DNA of 59,647 bases from Bdellovibrio sp. ZAP7 (GTDB taxonomy: Bacteria; Bdellovibrionota; UBA1018; CAIMNF01), in NCBI GenBank assembly GCA_945874535.1, contig CAMCGZ010000015.1:1-59647 (forward strand), read 5' to 3'. The stretch's first letter is position 1, and the number at the start of each line of letters is the position of its first letter. Under the pieces are notes generated by a model that did no database searches, had not been told where the DNA came from, and saw only the letters and a list, made by a program, of their open reading frames with translations. This document shows positions 16,988 to 22,300 of the stretch, one piece after another. The position numbers and the translations under genes are program-made.

Positions 16988-17117
16988 AGGACCTCCACCT
17001 TCTCATCTCTGATCGGTTTAGTCAGGTAAAACATGAGTGAAAAAACGAATGGCACTCCAATTGCTCCGGAGGGGTTTGAATTTGAGTCTCTCGAATTCAA
17101 AGGAAGGAAAAGGAACC

Positions 17118-17771
17118 ATGAAGAAAAGTCCTATGATTTTAATTATTTTAGCAGCCATGAGTGTCGCGGAGGCCCGAGCCCAGAGCCGCGGGAGGACGAT
17201 GATGGAAGTGAAGGGGGGTGGGTCGGAAAAAACCCTGAAGGACCAGTCGTGGGGACTTTCCGCCCAGCTGGGCGCTGTGGCCTACACCGACAATCAGGGA
17301 GATGCCACGAGCCGGATCGCATTCGGTGCCGCACTGGATTGGAATTTGAATCCTCTGATACGAGAGGATGCTCCAACCAATCAATACGTGGGTCTGGCGA
17401 CAGGCTTTCTGTATTCCCACCCCGGAGCGAGCGATTCGAATTTTCTCGGCGGAAGTGAGTCGAGCGGTAAGAATTCGGATTTCTTGTTCATCCCGTTGGA
17501 TGCCAAAATCGGCTATGATTTCACGGATTCATTCCGTCTGGCCGTTCGGGGTGGGGGGAACCTCATTTACCGGAGCAATCCTTCGGTGACCAACATCGGA
17601 GCGGGAACGGGCGATTCAGGTGGCCTGTGGAAGCTCTATCCGAACATCGGTCTGGATGCAGATATCCAGCTTTCCGAGAATTTCAGTCTGACGGTCAGGC
17701 CCGACATCACCCTGACCCCGGGGAATGACCTGTATGTGGCCACCATCGGGGCCACTTACGTCGGGTTTTAG
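17118..17771 (+). CDS. Outer-membrane beta-barrel-like protein
   Basis: 217 residues. ATG 17118 is preceded by AAGGAAAAGGAACC, and the signal peptide ends at ARAQ. The mature protein is rich in Gly, aromatic and alternating polar residues in about eight strand-like blocks (WGLSAQLGAVAYTD, DAKIGYDFTDSFRLAVRGGGNLIY, LYPNIGLDADIQLSENFSLTVRPDITL) and ends in aromatic ATIGATYVGF. This matches the OmpA/OmpW-like small barrel type. No specific family assigned. The GH1 gene starts 41 nt downstream, separated by a hairpin, so partial co-transcription with the sugar-hydrolase operon is possible. Confidence 0.78.
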   Translation: MKKSPMILIILAAMSVAEARAQSRGRTMMEVKGGGSEKTLKDQSWGLSAQLGAVAYTDNQGDATSRIAFGAALDWNLNPLIREDAPTNQYVGLATGFLYSHPGASDSNFLGGSESSGKNSDFLFIPLDAKIGYDFTDSFRLAVRGGGNLIYRSNPSVTNIGAGTGDSGGLWKLYPNIGLDADIQLSENFSLTVRPDITLTPGNDLYVATIGATYVGF

Positions 17772-17781
17772 ACCACTTGCG

Positions 17782-17816
17782 TCATGGGGCGAGCTCTGCT
17801 AGGGTTCGCCCCATGA
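17782..17816 (+). promoter_or_regulatory. Inverted repeat burying the GH1 start codon; 10-codon mini-ORF
   Basis: Arms TCATGGGGCGA (17782-17792) and TCGCCCCATGA (17806-17816) are perfect over 11 bp with a 13-nt loop. The GH1 ATG (17813-17815) lies in the right arm and its AGGG ribosome-binding site (17801-17804) in the loop. An ATG in the left arm (17784) opens a 10-codon frame whose TGA overlaps the GH1 ATG. No T-tract follows. It could be a translational switch, an RNA-processing site or a protein-binding operator. Confidence 0.6.
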
Positions 17817-19174
17817 TTCAATTCAAGACTCTTTTTATTCTCCTGTTAGCCCTGGGATGGACTTTGCCGATTCCGGTTTTGGGTTTCACCCCTGACTTCA
17901 AGTTTTGTGTCGCTACTGCAGCCCATCAGATCGAGGGCGGGAATTTCAATTCAGATTGGGATCGGTGGGAGCAGACCCCGGGCAAAATCAAGCAGGGGCA
18001 CACTGCTCGCGTTGCCACGGACTCCTGGAACCATTTGGACGAGGATGTCGCCCACATGAAGGACCTCGGTATCGACCTTTACCGGTTTTCAGTCGAGTGG
18101 GCCAAGATTGAGCCGGCTCCCGGACAGTACCGAATGGATGAAATCATCCGTTACCGGGATCTGGTCCGGCGGCTTCGCGCCGAGGGAATCGAGTCCATGG
18201 TCACCCTTCATCACTTCACGCTTCCGAAGTGGGTGGCGGATCGCGGAGGTTGGGATTGGAGCGGGATTCCAGAAGCCTTCGAGAACTATGTGACTCGAGT
18301 GACGGGGGTGTTGGGTCCAGATGTCAGCTTTTGGGTCACCATCAATGAGCCGATGACGGTCATTGCCGGTGGCTATGTGAGTGATGTCTTTCCTCCTGCC
18401 AAAAACAATCTGGGGTTGATCGCACTTCCTATGGCCAATATGCTCCGAGCGCATGCCCGGGCTTATCATGCGATTCATCGGGCGCTGGATGCGGATGATT
18501 TCCTCCCGAAGGTTGGATTTGCGCACCATTTGAGAAATTTCGACCCCGCCCGCAGATCGAATCCTCTGGATCGGTACCTGGCCCGCAAATTCGACGAGGT
18601 TTTCAACTGGGCTCTTCCTTTGGCCACATTGGATGGAAGATTGCGGTGGAATGTTCCTTTTTTGACCCGCTCGAAAGTGTTTATTCCAGAGGCGATCGGA
18701 ACCCAGGACTTCTTCGGCTTGAATTATTACTCGAGGGATCGGCTACGACTGACACCCTTCAAGGCTCCCTTCATCCAGAGGGAGACATCGAGAGGCGCAG
18801 ACACTACCGAACTCGGGTGGGAGCTGTATCCCGCCGGAATGAGTCGACTTCTGTATCAGATCCGGAGTCGGTTTCCGGGTATGGAGATCCACCTGACCGA
18901 GAACGGGCTGGCGGACGCGGATGACACCCAGCGAATTCCGTTCATTCGAGAACATCTCGCGGTGCTGGAAAAGCACATCCGTGACGGTGCTCCGATCCGA
19001 AGCTACTGTCACTGGACACTCAACGATAATTTCGAATGGGCGGAAGGTTACACTGCGCATTTCGGCTTTTATTCAATGGAGCCGGGAACCCTGAGGCGGA
19101 TTCCCCGCCCGAGTGCGCTCTGGTTCGGAGAGATGACCCGTTCAGTGAGGCAAACCGGCAGGATTCCACAATGA
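17813..19174 (+). CDS. Exported GH1 beta-glycosidase
   Basis: 453 residues. ATG 17813 gives a signal peptide (MIQFKTLFILLLALGWTLPIPVLG) followed at once by the GH1 opening DFKFCVATAAHQIEGG. The acid/base Glu179 lies in FWVTINEPM and the nucleophile Glu363 in HLTENG. RFSVEWAKIEPAPG and HWTLNDNFEWAEGY are further GH1 blocks, so the enzyme looks active. GH1 enzymes cleave beta-glucosides and related sugars; export to the periplasm is uncommon. It overlaps the NAGPA gene by 4 nt (ATGA) and heads a three-enzyme operon; translation may be controlled by the hairpin at its start. Confidence 0.93.
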   Translation: MIQFKTLFILLLALGWTLPIPVLGFTPDFKFCVATAAHQIEGGNFNSDWDRWEQTPGKIKQGHTARVATDSWNHLDEDVAHMKDLGIDLYRFSVEWAKIEPAPGQYRMDEIIRYRDLVRRLRAEGIESMVTLHHFTLPKWVADRGGWDWSGIPEAFENYVTRVTGVLGPDVSFWVTINEPMTVIAGGYVSDVFPPAKNNLGLIALPMANMLRAHARAYHAIHRALDADDFLPKVGFAHHLRNFDPARRSNPLDRYLARKFDEVFNWALPLATLDGRLRWNVPFLTRSKVFIPEAIGTQDFFGLNYYSRDRLRLTPFKAPFIQRETSRGADTTELGWELYPAGMSRLLYQIRSRFPGMEIHLTENGLADADDTQRIPFIREHLAVLEKHIRDGAPIRSYCHWTLNDNFEWAEGYTAHFGFYSMEPGTLRRIPRPSALWFGEMTRSVRQTGRIPQ

Positions 19175-20100
19175 ATCTTGCTCTGAAAGTGATGTTCGGA
19201 CTTTTTTGCGGGGGGATGGCCAGTGCTGCGGCTGTTCCGGCAAAGGCCCAGGGCTTCAAGTGTGAGCCGGTCGCGATACCGGAATGGCAGACATTGGCAG
19301 AAGGGGCCGAGTGGGCGAAGTTCGATGTCCGCTTCACCCCTTACCATCGCGAGACGCAGACTTGGGAGGGTGAAACCACTCGGTCTGTGACGGTGAGGGC
19401 CTTCAGGATCGATCCAGAAAAAATCGAGATGCGATTTCACCGGTCGACGAATGATCTCGAGTGCGATCCCACGAAGGATCGGTATATCCGGAAGCTGATC
19501 GGGGATTCCCGTGCGAAGGCACTGGGTGCGATCAATGCAAGTTTCTTCATCATGCCGAATGGCAAGACACTCGGTGTGATCGTGGATGAGAGGAAGGTGT
19601 GGGGACGGAATGCCGGTGAGCAGGGCATTTCCTCGTCGGGTGTACTCAGCCTTCAAAAAGGAGAATGGAAGCTCGAGTCCCGGGACCAGTTCATCGAGCG
19701 TCATGGACCTGTTATGAGTACGGTGGATGCCCGTGATTACCAATTTGCCGTACAGGCCTATCCGCGTCTGTTGTCGGACAGTCAGGTGGTGGTGTCGGAA
19801 CGGGTCAAAGAAGACAAGAGGCCCCGGACTTCGATCGGCCTGAGTGCCACTTCCAACCAGATCTTGTTGGTCACGCTCGATGCAGGCGGGGAAACCTCCG
19901 GAACAGGCATGAGTTTGTTTGAATTCGCACAGCTTTTAGGGTCGCGGGAATGCGGATTGGCTCAAAAAACGGTACTCAATCTGGACGGCGGCGGCTCGAC
20001 GGCTTTCGCGATCCCGTCAAATGGGATTTACCATCAGGCAGACCGATGCCGCCATCTTGGCAACATCTTGATGATTCAATCGAGGGCCAGGAAAAAGTGA
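19171..20100 (+). CDS. NAGPA-type phosphodiester glycosidase, exported
   Basis: 309 residues. ATG 19171 overlaps the GH1 stop. The signal peptide ends near AAAVPAKAQ. The NAGPA (DUF2233) domain follows, with ALGAINASFFIMPNGKTLGVIVDERKVWG, RTSIGLSATSNQILLVTLDAG and the signature TVLNLDGGGSTAFAI. In the mammalian uncovering enzyme this domain removes GlcNAc from a phosphodiester; bacterial members act on phosphodiester-linked sugars or are uncharacterised. The exact substrate cannot be read from sequence. It lies between GH1 and NamZ, with 4-nt overlaps on both sides. Confidence 0.9.
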   Translation: MNLALKVMFGLFCGGMASAAAVPAKAQGFKCEPVAIPEWQTLAEGAEWAKFDVRFTPYHRETQTWEGETTRSVTVRAFRIDPEKIEMRFHRSTNDLECDPTKDRYIRKLIGDSRAKALGAINASFFIMPNGKTLGVIVDERKVWGRNAGEQGISSSGVLSLQKGEWKLESRDQFIERHGPVMSTVDARDYQFAVQAYPRLLSDSQVVVSERVKEDKRPRTSIGLSATSNQILLVTLDAGGETSGTGMSLFEFAQLLGSRECGLAQKTVLNLDGGGSTAFAIPSNGIYHQADRCRHLGNILMIQSRARKK

Positions 20101-21299
20101 TTCTGGGCCTGATTCTTGACTTAATCGTTGGTACCACAGCTGTTTTCGCTTTCGATTACGGAATTGATCGCATCGACGAGCCGGGAGTGCGGTTCGAGTT
20201 GGAGGGGAAGAGTCTCGCTGTACTCGCCCATGCCGCATCGGTGGATCGGGAAGGCCGCCATCTCATCGATTTGTTGAGGTCGAGGCACCGCCTGGTCAAG
20301 ATCTTCACACCCGAACACGGACTCCGTTCGATGGATGACGGTTTCATCGATGACGGTGTGGACCCAGAGAGCGGACTCCCCGTGATTTCTCTGTACAAGA
20401 AAAACGGTCGTTTGCCCCGTCCGGAAGATTTATTCGATGTCGATGTCATCGTGATGGATCTCCAGGATGTCGGAATGAGGTACTACACCTATTTCTCGAC
20501 GCTTGCCGGATTCATGAAGGTCGCGGCTATTCTGGGCAAGAAAGTCATCTTACTCGACCGACCGAATCCAATCGGGGGTGATCGGGTCGAGGGATCGGTC
20601 TTGGACGCGTCCTTGGCCGGCAATTTCATCGCTTACCATCAGGTCCCGACCCGGCACGGGATGACCCTCGGGGAGCTTTCACTCCTGTTTCTCACCGAGT
20701 CCCGAGTGAGTTTGCCGCTTCAGGTGGTGGGGGTGACCGGGTGGCGTCGGCAGATTTTCAATGCGGAATTCGGCAGAGAATGGCGGGCATCCTCTCCTGC
20801 GTTGCCTGCCATTGAACAAGTCGAACTTTATGCATGGGTCGGGGCACTCGAGCAATTCAATTTGTCGGTAGGAAGAGGGGTCACCAATGAGGCGGCTTTT
20901 CGGGTGTTCGGAGCGCCTTGGATCACAGAGGAAGAATCGCTCCTGCTGGCCCGTGAATTGAATGAACTCCGACTGCCAGGCCTCGTCTTTCTTCCTCACC
21001 GCCAGCGGGTCACCCGGGCGATCTATGAGGGTCAGGATATCCGCGGAGTTCGGATTGAATTGGTTGGACCGCCTGAAGAAAGGGTTCGCTCGGACGAGGC
21101 AGTGTACCGGGTCAGCTCGATCCTTCTCCAACGATTCGCGGGGCGGATCACTTTCGGAAAATTCGCCGATCTCTACTTCGGGAACTCATCGTGGAAGAGC
21201 GCATGGGCGAAGGGGCAAGGGTGGGAAGAGTTCTCTGCCAGCCTAGAATCTGACTTAATGGAGTTTCGCCTGCGTCGCGCTCCCTTTTTGCTGTACTGA
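20097..21299 (+). CDS. namZ: NamZ-type exo-beta-N-acetylmuramidase (DUF1343/GH171), exported
   Basis: 400 residues from GTG 20097, chosen because it overlaps the NAGPA stop (GTGA) and yields a signal peptide (VILGLILDLIVGTTAVFA). The DUF1343 blocks are present: FTPEHGLRS, VISLYKKNGRLP, DVIVMDLQDVGMRYYTYFSTLAGFM, ILLDRPNPIGGDRVEGS, YHQVPTRHGMTLGELSLLF and LSVGRGVTNEAAFRVFGAPWI. Bacillus YbbC (NamZ) releases MurNAc from the non-reducing end of peptidoglycan chains, and CAZy family GH171 is based on it. In Bacillus it works with NagZ and AmiE; here the partners are GH1 and NAGPA. The 3' end overlaps the convergent esterase gene by 45 nt. Confidence 0.9.
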   Translation: MILGLILDLIVGTTAVFAFDYGIDRIDEPGVRFELEGKSLAVLAHAASVDREGRHLIDLLRSRHRLVKIFTPEHGLRSMDDGFIDDGVDPESGLPVISLYKKNGRLPRPEDLFDVDVIVMDLQDVGMRYYTYFSTLAGFMKVAAILGKKVILLDRPNPIGGDRVEGSVLDASLAGNFIAYHQVPTRHGMTLGELSLLFLTESRVSLPLQVVGVTGWRRQIFNAEFGREWRASSPALPAIEQVELYAWVGALEQFNLSVGRGVTNEAAFRVFGAPWITEEESLLLARELNELRLPGLVFLPHRQRVTRAIYEGQDIRGVRIELVGPPEERVRSDEAVYRVSSILLQRFAGRITFGKFADLYFGNSSWKSAWAKGQGWEEFSASLESDLMEFRLRRAPFLLY

Positions 21300-22202
21300 G
21301 AGTTCCTTGAAAAACAGGAAAGCGCTCTCGTGACCGTTCGGAGTCGGTTGACCGTCCACGCGGATCTCAGTCCGGTGGGGAATGCCCAGTTCAGTCGCCC
21401 GGAGTGAGAGCTCTCTGGCGTGGCGGGGAGAATGAACAAAGTGATTGTGATCCCGGTCCGGGGTGTCGTCGAGATTGTTCCAGAACAGCACGGGGGCATC
21501 ATCAGAAGAAAGATTTCCGTACATATCGAGGTACTTCCTGACTTCAATCCCACGGGTGGTGTCGAGCTCAGCCGCTGACTTGAAATGATACCTGGAATAA
21601 ACCTGGTCTTTCATGTATCGATCCGTCATTTCTTTACCGAAAATTTTGTACCAGACGTAATAATCATAAGACACTTGGGCATTCATGTGTCCGGCACCTT
21701 GAACCCGCGTCGATTCTCTTCTGCCACGCTTTTTCGATTCCGGCGAAGCAAGATCGTCATGGCTGGCTAGCCAGAGACTCGCACTCCCTCCGGCGCTGTA
21801 GCCGTAGGCATAGATCCGTGTTTTATCGATTCCATATCGATCGGCATGAAGGCGGATGAACTGGATGAATCCGCCGATGTCTTCGCGCATGATGGTTTGC
21901 AGGGGAGCGTGTTTCAAAAACCGGTAGTTGATAGCCGCAAACGCAAAACCCGATTTCAGGTACCGGGCGCGTGTTCCCGGGGCCTTTCTCATTTCGTCTT
22001 TGCTTCCTACCTGCCAACCGCCACCGTGGATGTACACCACCAGGGGTGCGTTTTTCGAGTTGGACGGGGCCCAAAGGTCGAAAACCTGACGGGAGTGTCT
22101 TCCGTAAGGGATATCGAGCCGTTCCTCCACCTCGACCCCCACGGGGGTTGCAGCCTGTGAAGTCGGTAATAGAAACGCGATCCAAGTCAGGAAGAGCAAC
22201 AT
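21255..22202 (-). CDS. Secreted alpha/beta-hydrolase (esterase/lipase-like)
   Basis: 315 residues from ATG 22202 (an ATG six codons upstream is possible). The signal peptide MLLFLTWIAFLLPTSQA precedes a BD-FAE/HSL-like hydrolase: oxyanion motif VVYIHGGGWQVGSKDE, nucleophile YGYSAGGSASLW and a C-terminal GHESAFLFF histidine. Likely a carboxylesterase acting in the periplasm or outside. A segment with YYVWYKIFGKEMTDRYMK is a family-specific insertion. It converges on NamZ with overlapping 3' ends; a role in deacetylating wall or plant polysaccharide is speculative. Confidence 0.88.
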   Translation of the reverse strand: MLLFLTWIAFLLPTSQAATPVGVEVEERLDIPYGRHSRQVFDLWAPSNSKNAPLVVYIHGGGWQVGSKDEMRKAPGTRARYLKSGFAFAAINYRFLKHAPLQTIMREDIGGFIQFIRLHADRYGIDKTRIYAYGYSAGGSASLWLASHDDLASPESKKRGRRESTRVQGAGHMNAQVSYDYYVWYKIFGKEMTDRYMKDQVYSRYHFKSAAELDTTRGIEVRKYLDMYGNLSSDDAPVLFWNNLDDTPDRDHNHFVHSPRHARELSLRATELGIPHRTEIRVDGQPTPNGHESAFLFFKELSVQQKGSATQAKLH

Positions 22203-22300
22203 GGTGGGTGATTCTATCAAAGACCGGCCAGACCTAGAAGAGAAAAGTTGTGGAAAAAACTCGGCTTTTATATCGGATTCATTGATTTATACTCTTCTTC

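Follow-up and report, generated by a model that had tools for sequence, protein, structure and literature searches.

The window analysed here, a stretch of 59,647 nt from Bdellovibrio sp. ZAP7, contained three overlapping genes for exported carbohydrate-active enzymes and a convergent fourth gene, arranged as follows.

17813–19174, forward strand: GH1 gene (ATG start at 17813), exported GH1 beta-glycosidase
19171–20100, forward strand: NAGPA gene (ATG start at 19171), exported NAGPA/DUF2233 phosphodiester-glycosidase-like protein
20097–21299, forward strand: NamZ-B gene (GTG start at 20097), second, operon-type exo-beta-N-acetylmuramidase-like protein (GH171)
21255–22220, reverse strand: exported alpha/beta hydrolase gene (PF20434), carbohydrate-esterase-like and convergent with NamZ-B

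The name NamZ-B was given to the operon-type protein, as distinct from the housekeeping NamZ; the genome (2.4 Mb, 39 contigs) carried two NamZ genes and one NAGPA gene. The co-occurrence of NAGPA, NamZ-B and the hydrolase in genomes where their genes are unlinked supports a shared function of these three proteins.

The first-pass annotation had described an operon of three genes with 4-nt overlaps, each with its own signal peptide, an intact pair of GH1 catalytic Glu residues, the NAGPA signature and the DUF1343 blocks. The coordinates and both overlaps (ATGA for GH1/NAGPA and GTGA for NAGPA/NamZ-B) were exact, and the catalytic pair was found as Glu179 (TINEP) and Glu363 (TENG). The Pfam matches were PF00232 for GH1 (5e-84, 282.7 bits), PF09992 for NAGPA (4.5e-19, 69.7 bits, over the cut-off), and NamZ_N PF07075 (8e-61, 205.3 bits) and NamZ_C PF20732 (7e-21, 76.1 bits) for NamZ-B, both over the curated cut-offs. 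The signal peptides were clear for GH1 and NAGPA. The leader of NamZ-B was weak by itself, with an Asp in the hydrophobic stretch and no basic residue near the start (VILGLILDLIVGTTAVFA-F); almost all of its orthologues had ordinary signal peptides.

For the distribution of the cluster, 143 relatives were checked for GH1 and the Pfam NAGPA family, while the set for NAGPA and NamZ-B comprised 250 genomes of the phylum. Among the 143 relatives, two congeners (G006 and G009) shared the GH1–NAGPA–NamZ-B order with both 4-nt overlaps. Where dS (the synonymous rate) was measurable, the ratio of nonsynonymous to synonymous substitution rates (dN/dS) was about 0.06–0.10 for these three genes and 0.02–0.10 for every tested gene of the region. 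The arrangement is thus not a product of chance, because the same order and overlaps were kept in both congeners and the genes were under purifying selection. The neighbourhood search that the first-pass annotation had proposed recovered the triplet within the genus (g1) and none outside it, other phyla being reached only through a NAGPA pattern scan. Among plasmids, NAGPA and NamZ-B had distant matches only. In another congener, G007, NAGPA was located on one contig and NamZ-B beside the hydrolase on another, and no GH1 match was found. In the region L031:13052-16405 of this congener, the NAGPA gene overlapped by 4 nt a gene that appeared CheX-like by eye, and it was convergent with a GntP-type permease gene.

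NAGPA of the window type was found in 15 of the 250 genomes, and NamZ-B in 14 of these 15. Four of the genomes belonged to g1 and eleven to g88, a genus of 26 genomes in another family of the phylum. Within g88, NAGPA and NamZ-B were each present in 11 genomes and together in 10, with one genome holding only NAGPA (G203) and one only NamZ-B (G224). The two genes were unlinked throughout g88: in G211 a single contig held both at a distance of 145 kb, and elsewhere they were on separate contigs. The hydrolase, which was picked for the co-occurrence test because of its adjacency to NamZ-B, was sought in 46 genomes. Its presence in g88 coincided exactly with that of NamZ-B, covering the same 11 genomes, and all other tested g88 genomes lacked it. 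It was likewise unlinked there and stood in more than one chromosomal setting. All three core genes were thus present in 10 of the 11 g88 genomes with NAGPA.

The association of NAGPA and NamZ-B in g88 gave a Fisher p of 2e-5 with phylogeny ignored. When traits were simulated on the housekeeping NamZ tree, the agreement between NAGPA and NamZ-B (21/23) had a p of about 0.0015, and the identity between hydrolase and NamZ-B (23/23) a p of about 0.0001. An independent-pairs test was underpowered, the events being too few. The gene trees of NAGPA, NamZ-B and the hydrolase were compatible, and each parted g1, including G007, from g88. The functional link between NAGPA and NamZ suggested by the first-pass annotation was therefore supported in a distant genus. 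Since this link rests on unlinked co-occurrence, separation of the genes in relatives, which the first-pass annotation had named as a refutation, does not count against that pair.

The hydrolase lay beyond the three genes first described, and its 3' end overlapped that of NamZ-B; the overlap measured 45 nt in the three cluster species and 53 nt in G007. It matched PF20434 (2.8e-24, 86.3 bits against a cut-off of 26.8), and its AlphaFold model had a predicted local distance difference test score (pLDDT) of 86. The nearest PDB entries were carbohydrate and acetylxylan esterases (6xyc, 6tkx). With BD-FAE and these carbohydrate esterases the protein shared the fold and the Ser nucleophile motif GYSAGG, and across orthologues S142 of this motif was invariant, as were H178, H260, H263 and H267. 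It differed from 6xyc and 6tkx in sequence (about 16% identity), in a C-terminal His that is not conserved and in its genomic partners. The likeness to the peptidoglycan O-acetylesterase Ape1 is one of proposed role only, namely the clearing of C6 of N-acetylmuramic acid (MurNAc); Ape1 is an SGNH hydrolase, whereas the window protein is an alpha/beta hydrolase. As a member of a shared pathway, the hydrolase is a better candidate than GH1.

The AlphaFold model of NAGPA had a pLDDT of 77, with a weak stretch at residues 126–153. Its best PDB match was 3ohg (DUF2233), followed by vertebrate NAGPA uncovering enzymes, and the E-values against 3ohg and the 6pk- series ranged from 3e-14 to 4e-8. The fold and the motifs INASFF, RTSIG and NLDGGGS were shared with the mammalian uncovering enzyme and with BACOVA_00430. 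In comparison with these proteins, the window NAGPA belonged to a divergent subfamily, which our searches recovered from no more than a few genomes, all of this phylum. The mammalian NAGPA cuts an alpha-linked N-acetylglucosamine-1-phosphate (alpha-GlcNAc-1-phosphate) type of bond, and we know of no firmly assigned natural substrate for the bacterial DUF2233/NAGPA proteins. Weak PF09992 matches in G001, G008 and G011 were considered as divergent NAGPAs and dropped, as they were part of another conserved gene set. In two metagenome-assembled genomes (MAGs) of Bacteriovoracaceae (L054:7307-9834 and L057:1060-3101), an open reading frame of 545 aa overlapped the NAGPA start by 4 nt. It was rejected as a partner, for it was not seen next to NAGPA at the remaining g88 loci.

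NamZ-B aligned throughout with its PDB relatives 4k05 and 4jja. Like the NamZ proteins of GH171 (Bacillus subtilis NamZ/YbbC, Tannerella NamZ1 and NamZ2), it had both domains, an export signal and the motifs PEHG and DRPN. Unlike them, it lacked the AGE/AGD block after PEHG, was unlinked to NagZ or an amidase, and had NAGPA and the alpha/beta hydrolase as genomic partners. It also formed a clade of its own, apart from the phylum's housekeeping NamZ, which was present in most of the genomes examined, whereas NamZ-B was patchy. The aligned housekeeping copies of the phylum (L043:10026-11234 and L060-L082 of g88) had PQHG in place of the PEHG of NamZ-B and the solved relatives. The housekeeping NamZ frame overlapped the downstream frame of an S13 (PBP4/DacB-type) D,D-carboxypeptidase (L043:10026-12603, contig C16), a possible self-wall pair. 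A GH15/trehalase-like gene beside NamZ-B in g88 was not taken as functional evidence, because it belonged to a syntenic block.

GH1 showed a different picture. The first-pass annotation had asked whether its pocket would fit GlcNAc or MurNAc. By sequence, the residues of the −1 (glycone) subsite were all canonical (Q39, H134, N178, E179, E363, W401, E408 and W409), with no apparent alteration that would admit a 2-acetamido or lactyl group. Such residues suit plain hexosides and disfavour 2-acetamido sugars, an outcome that the first-pass annotation had named as counting against its shared-pathway idea. Both catalytic Glu residues and the canonical glycone site were common to GH1 beta-glycosidases such as that of Pyrococcus horikoshii (1vff) and the classical BglA; unlike these, the window GH1 and its relatives in the order were exported. 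GH1 genes were widespread across the order, and all ten of the closest ones examined carried export signals. Those of g88 were distant (best full-length match about 31%), and their distribution was unrelated to that of NAGPA and NamZ-B. The place of GH1 in a common pathway was not borne out, as the gene stood beside NAGPA and NamZ only in the three sister species and was missing in G007. Its wide occurrence in the order, the lack of a matching pattern in g88 and the canonical glycone residues suggest that GH1 is probably a passenger of the module. In G044, of another family (L036:6764-13091), a UvrD gene separated NamZ-B from an oppositely oriented GH1 gene, at a distance of about 4 kb. This was taken as coincidence, though no other case of GH1 near NamZ-B was seen outside the cluster species.

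The earlier proposal of an exported glycan-processing system thus stood for NAGPA and NamZ, and not for the membership of GH1. Our preferred reading, for and against which we see the chances as evenly divided, is that three enzymes (the hydrolase, NAGPA and NamZ-B) form an exported module acting on one muramic-acid-bearing envelope polymer, with GH1 as a later addition. The hydrolase would strip ester-linked acyl groups from the polymer, and NAGPA would cleave a sugar-1-phosphate diester and so release the sugar or entire glycan attached through it. Once the chain end is cleared, NamZ-B would free the MurNAc, or a related sugar, at its terminus. As a lineage-specific addition, GH1 might complete the breakdown by attacking beta-linked hexoses in this material, or it might merely share the promoter. 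In plain terms, the enzymes probably strip side groups from cell-wall sugar chains and then nibble the chains. We infer the joint substrate and its identity, the order of the steps and the source of the polymer, be it prey, debris or the own cell.

All three core enzymes could act at or near C6 of MurNAc. In a C6-clearing module the hydrolase might remove the 6-O-acetyl group, and NAGPA might cut the alpha-GlcNAc-1-phosphate diester by which wall teichoic acid, arabinogalactan or similar glycopolymers are attached to O6 of MurNAc. NamZ-B might then work its way along the exposed chain from the end. This specific version is improbable in our estimation; it is attractive because of what MurNAc carries at C6 and because of the bond cut by the mammalian NAGPA. 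Both O-acetyl groups and phosphodiester-linked glycopolymers sit on MurNAc C6 (review PMC6174289), and the glycopolymers at this position are also covered in a second review (PMC7831098). If the version is true, Bdellovibrionota could process decorated walls, including those of the Gram-positive type, and a bacterial role of the NAGPA family would be chemically parallel to that of the mammalian uncovering enzyme.

Several observations weigh against the three-enzyme module. The usual C-terminal His of the hydrolase (GH in the window protein) was absent in most orthologues, which makes its activity unsure, and the AGE/AGD block of 4k05 and 4jja was replaced by MDDG / ADD or ADE in NamZ-B. The g88 pattern was underlain by about 2–4 independent gain or loss events, with 3–4 changes needed on the housekeeping NamZ tree, and the co-occurrence was assessed on a tree from one marker gene and on incomplete MAGs. 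Furthermore, NamZ-B was found without NAGPA and the hydrolase in G044, G071, G144 and G236, the hydrolase without NamZ-B in G001, G003 and G011, and NAGPA alone in G203. A shared habitat could also produce the same presence profile. It is a component of one alternative, in which a three-gene cluster moved between the g1 and g88 lineages, was scattered later, and was kept through similar habitats with no joint function. The split between g1 and g88 in all three gene trees is consistent with such a history, as are the small number of independent events and the origin of the named relatives, which are environmental MAGs, one from a pond. However, g88 genomes still had or lacked the dispersed genes together, and the hydrolase occupied more than one chromosomal setting, whereas unrelated genes would be expected to be lost separately. 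Co-inheritance of this kind seems rather unlikely to us.

A simpler account, which we consider doubtful and yet worth serious attention, is that unrelated carbohydrate enzymes share a promoter. The cluster would then be a scavenging operon of one small clade, each enzyme having its own substrate (beta-glucosides, sugar phosphodiesters and peptidoglycan). The full four-gene cluster was indeed limited to three sister species, the genes were dispersed in G007 and g88, and GH1 was common and exported across the order whatever other genes were present. For GH1 this account is likely right; for the other three it is opposed by their being found together even when dispersed. Another option is that the module trims the ends of the cell's own peptidoglycan and aids MurNAc recycling, as in the Bacillus NagZ–AmiE–NamZ route. 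NagZ was encoded in the genome, and the overlap of the housekeeping NamZ with the S13 D,D-carboxypeptidase gene also speaks for work on the self wall. Because of that same overlap, however, such work probably belongs to the housekeeping copy, which fits the role better than the patchy NamZ-B. In the Bacillus-type rescue locus, NamZ is linked with an exported NagZ, whereas the single GH3/NagZ gene here was on another contig (C5) and had no visible signal peptide. AnmK, of MurNAc recycling, was not found in the 9 genomes searched, and NAGPA is not needed for recycling. Self-wall recycling by this module is therefore very improbable.

The enzyme families are known, while their combination and unlinked co-occurrence are new to us; the combination was not found in the literature searched, a search without the primary NamZ and DUF2233 papers. 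Because NamZ-B and the esterase-like hydrolase accompany NAGPA even where the loci are unlinked, a class of substrates for NAGPA can be put forward for testing: wall polymers that contain muramic acid, sugars in phosphodiester linkage and acyl groups. The visible operon was in part a misleading guide, since GH1 within it is probably a passenger and a true partner, the hydrolase, is encoded on the opposite strand.

Two further features were located upstream of, and at the start of, GH1.

17037–17771, forward strand: exported protein, by eye probably a small outer-membrane barrel, with the likely start at ATG 17118
17782–17816, forward strand: hairpin with a stem of about 17 bp, spanning the Shine-Dalgarno-like AGGG and the start codon of GH1

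The first of these gave no match in a Pfam scan, and in each of the three cluster species a gap of about 42 nt separated it from the GH1 gene downstream. The hairpin was kept in G006 and G009 with compensatory changes, and the 75-nt stretch holding it had a folding energy of about −32 kcal/mol. It is possibly a translational gate or a processing or attenuation element.

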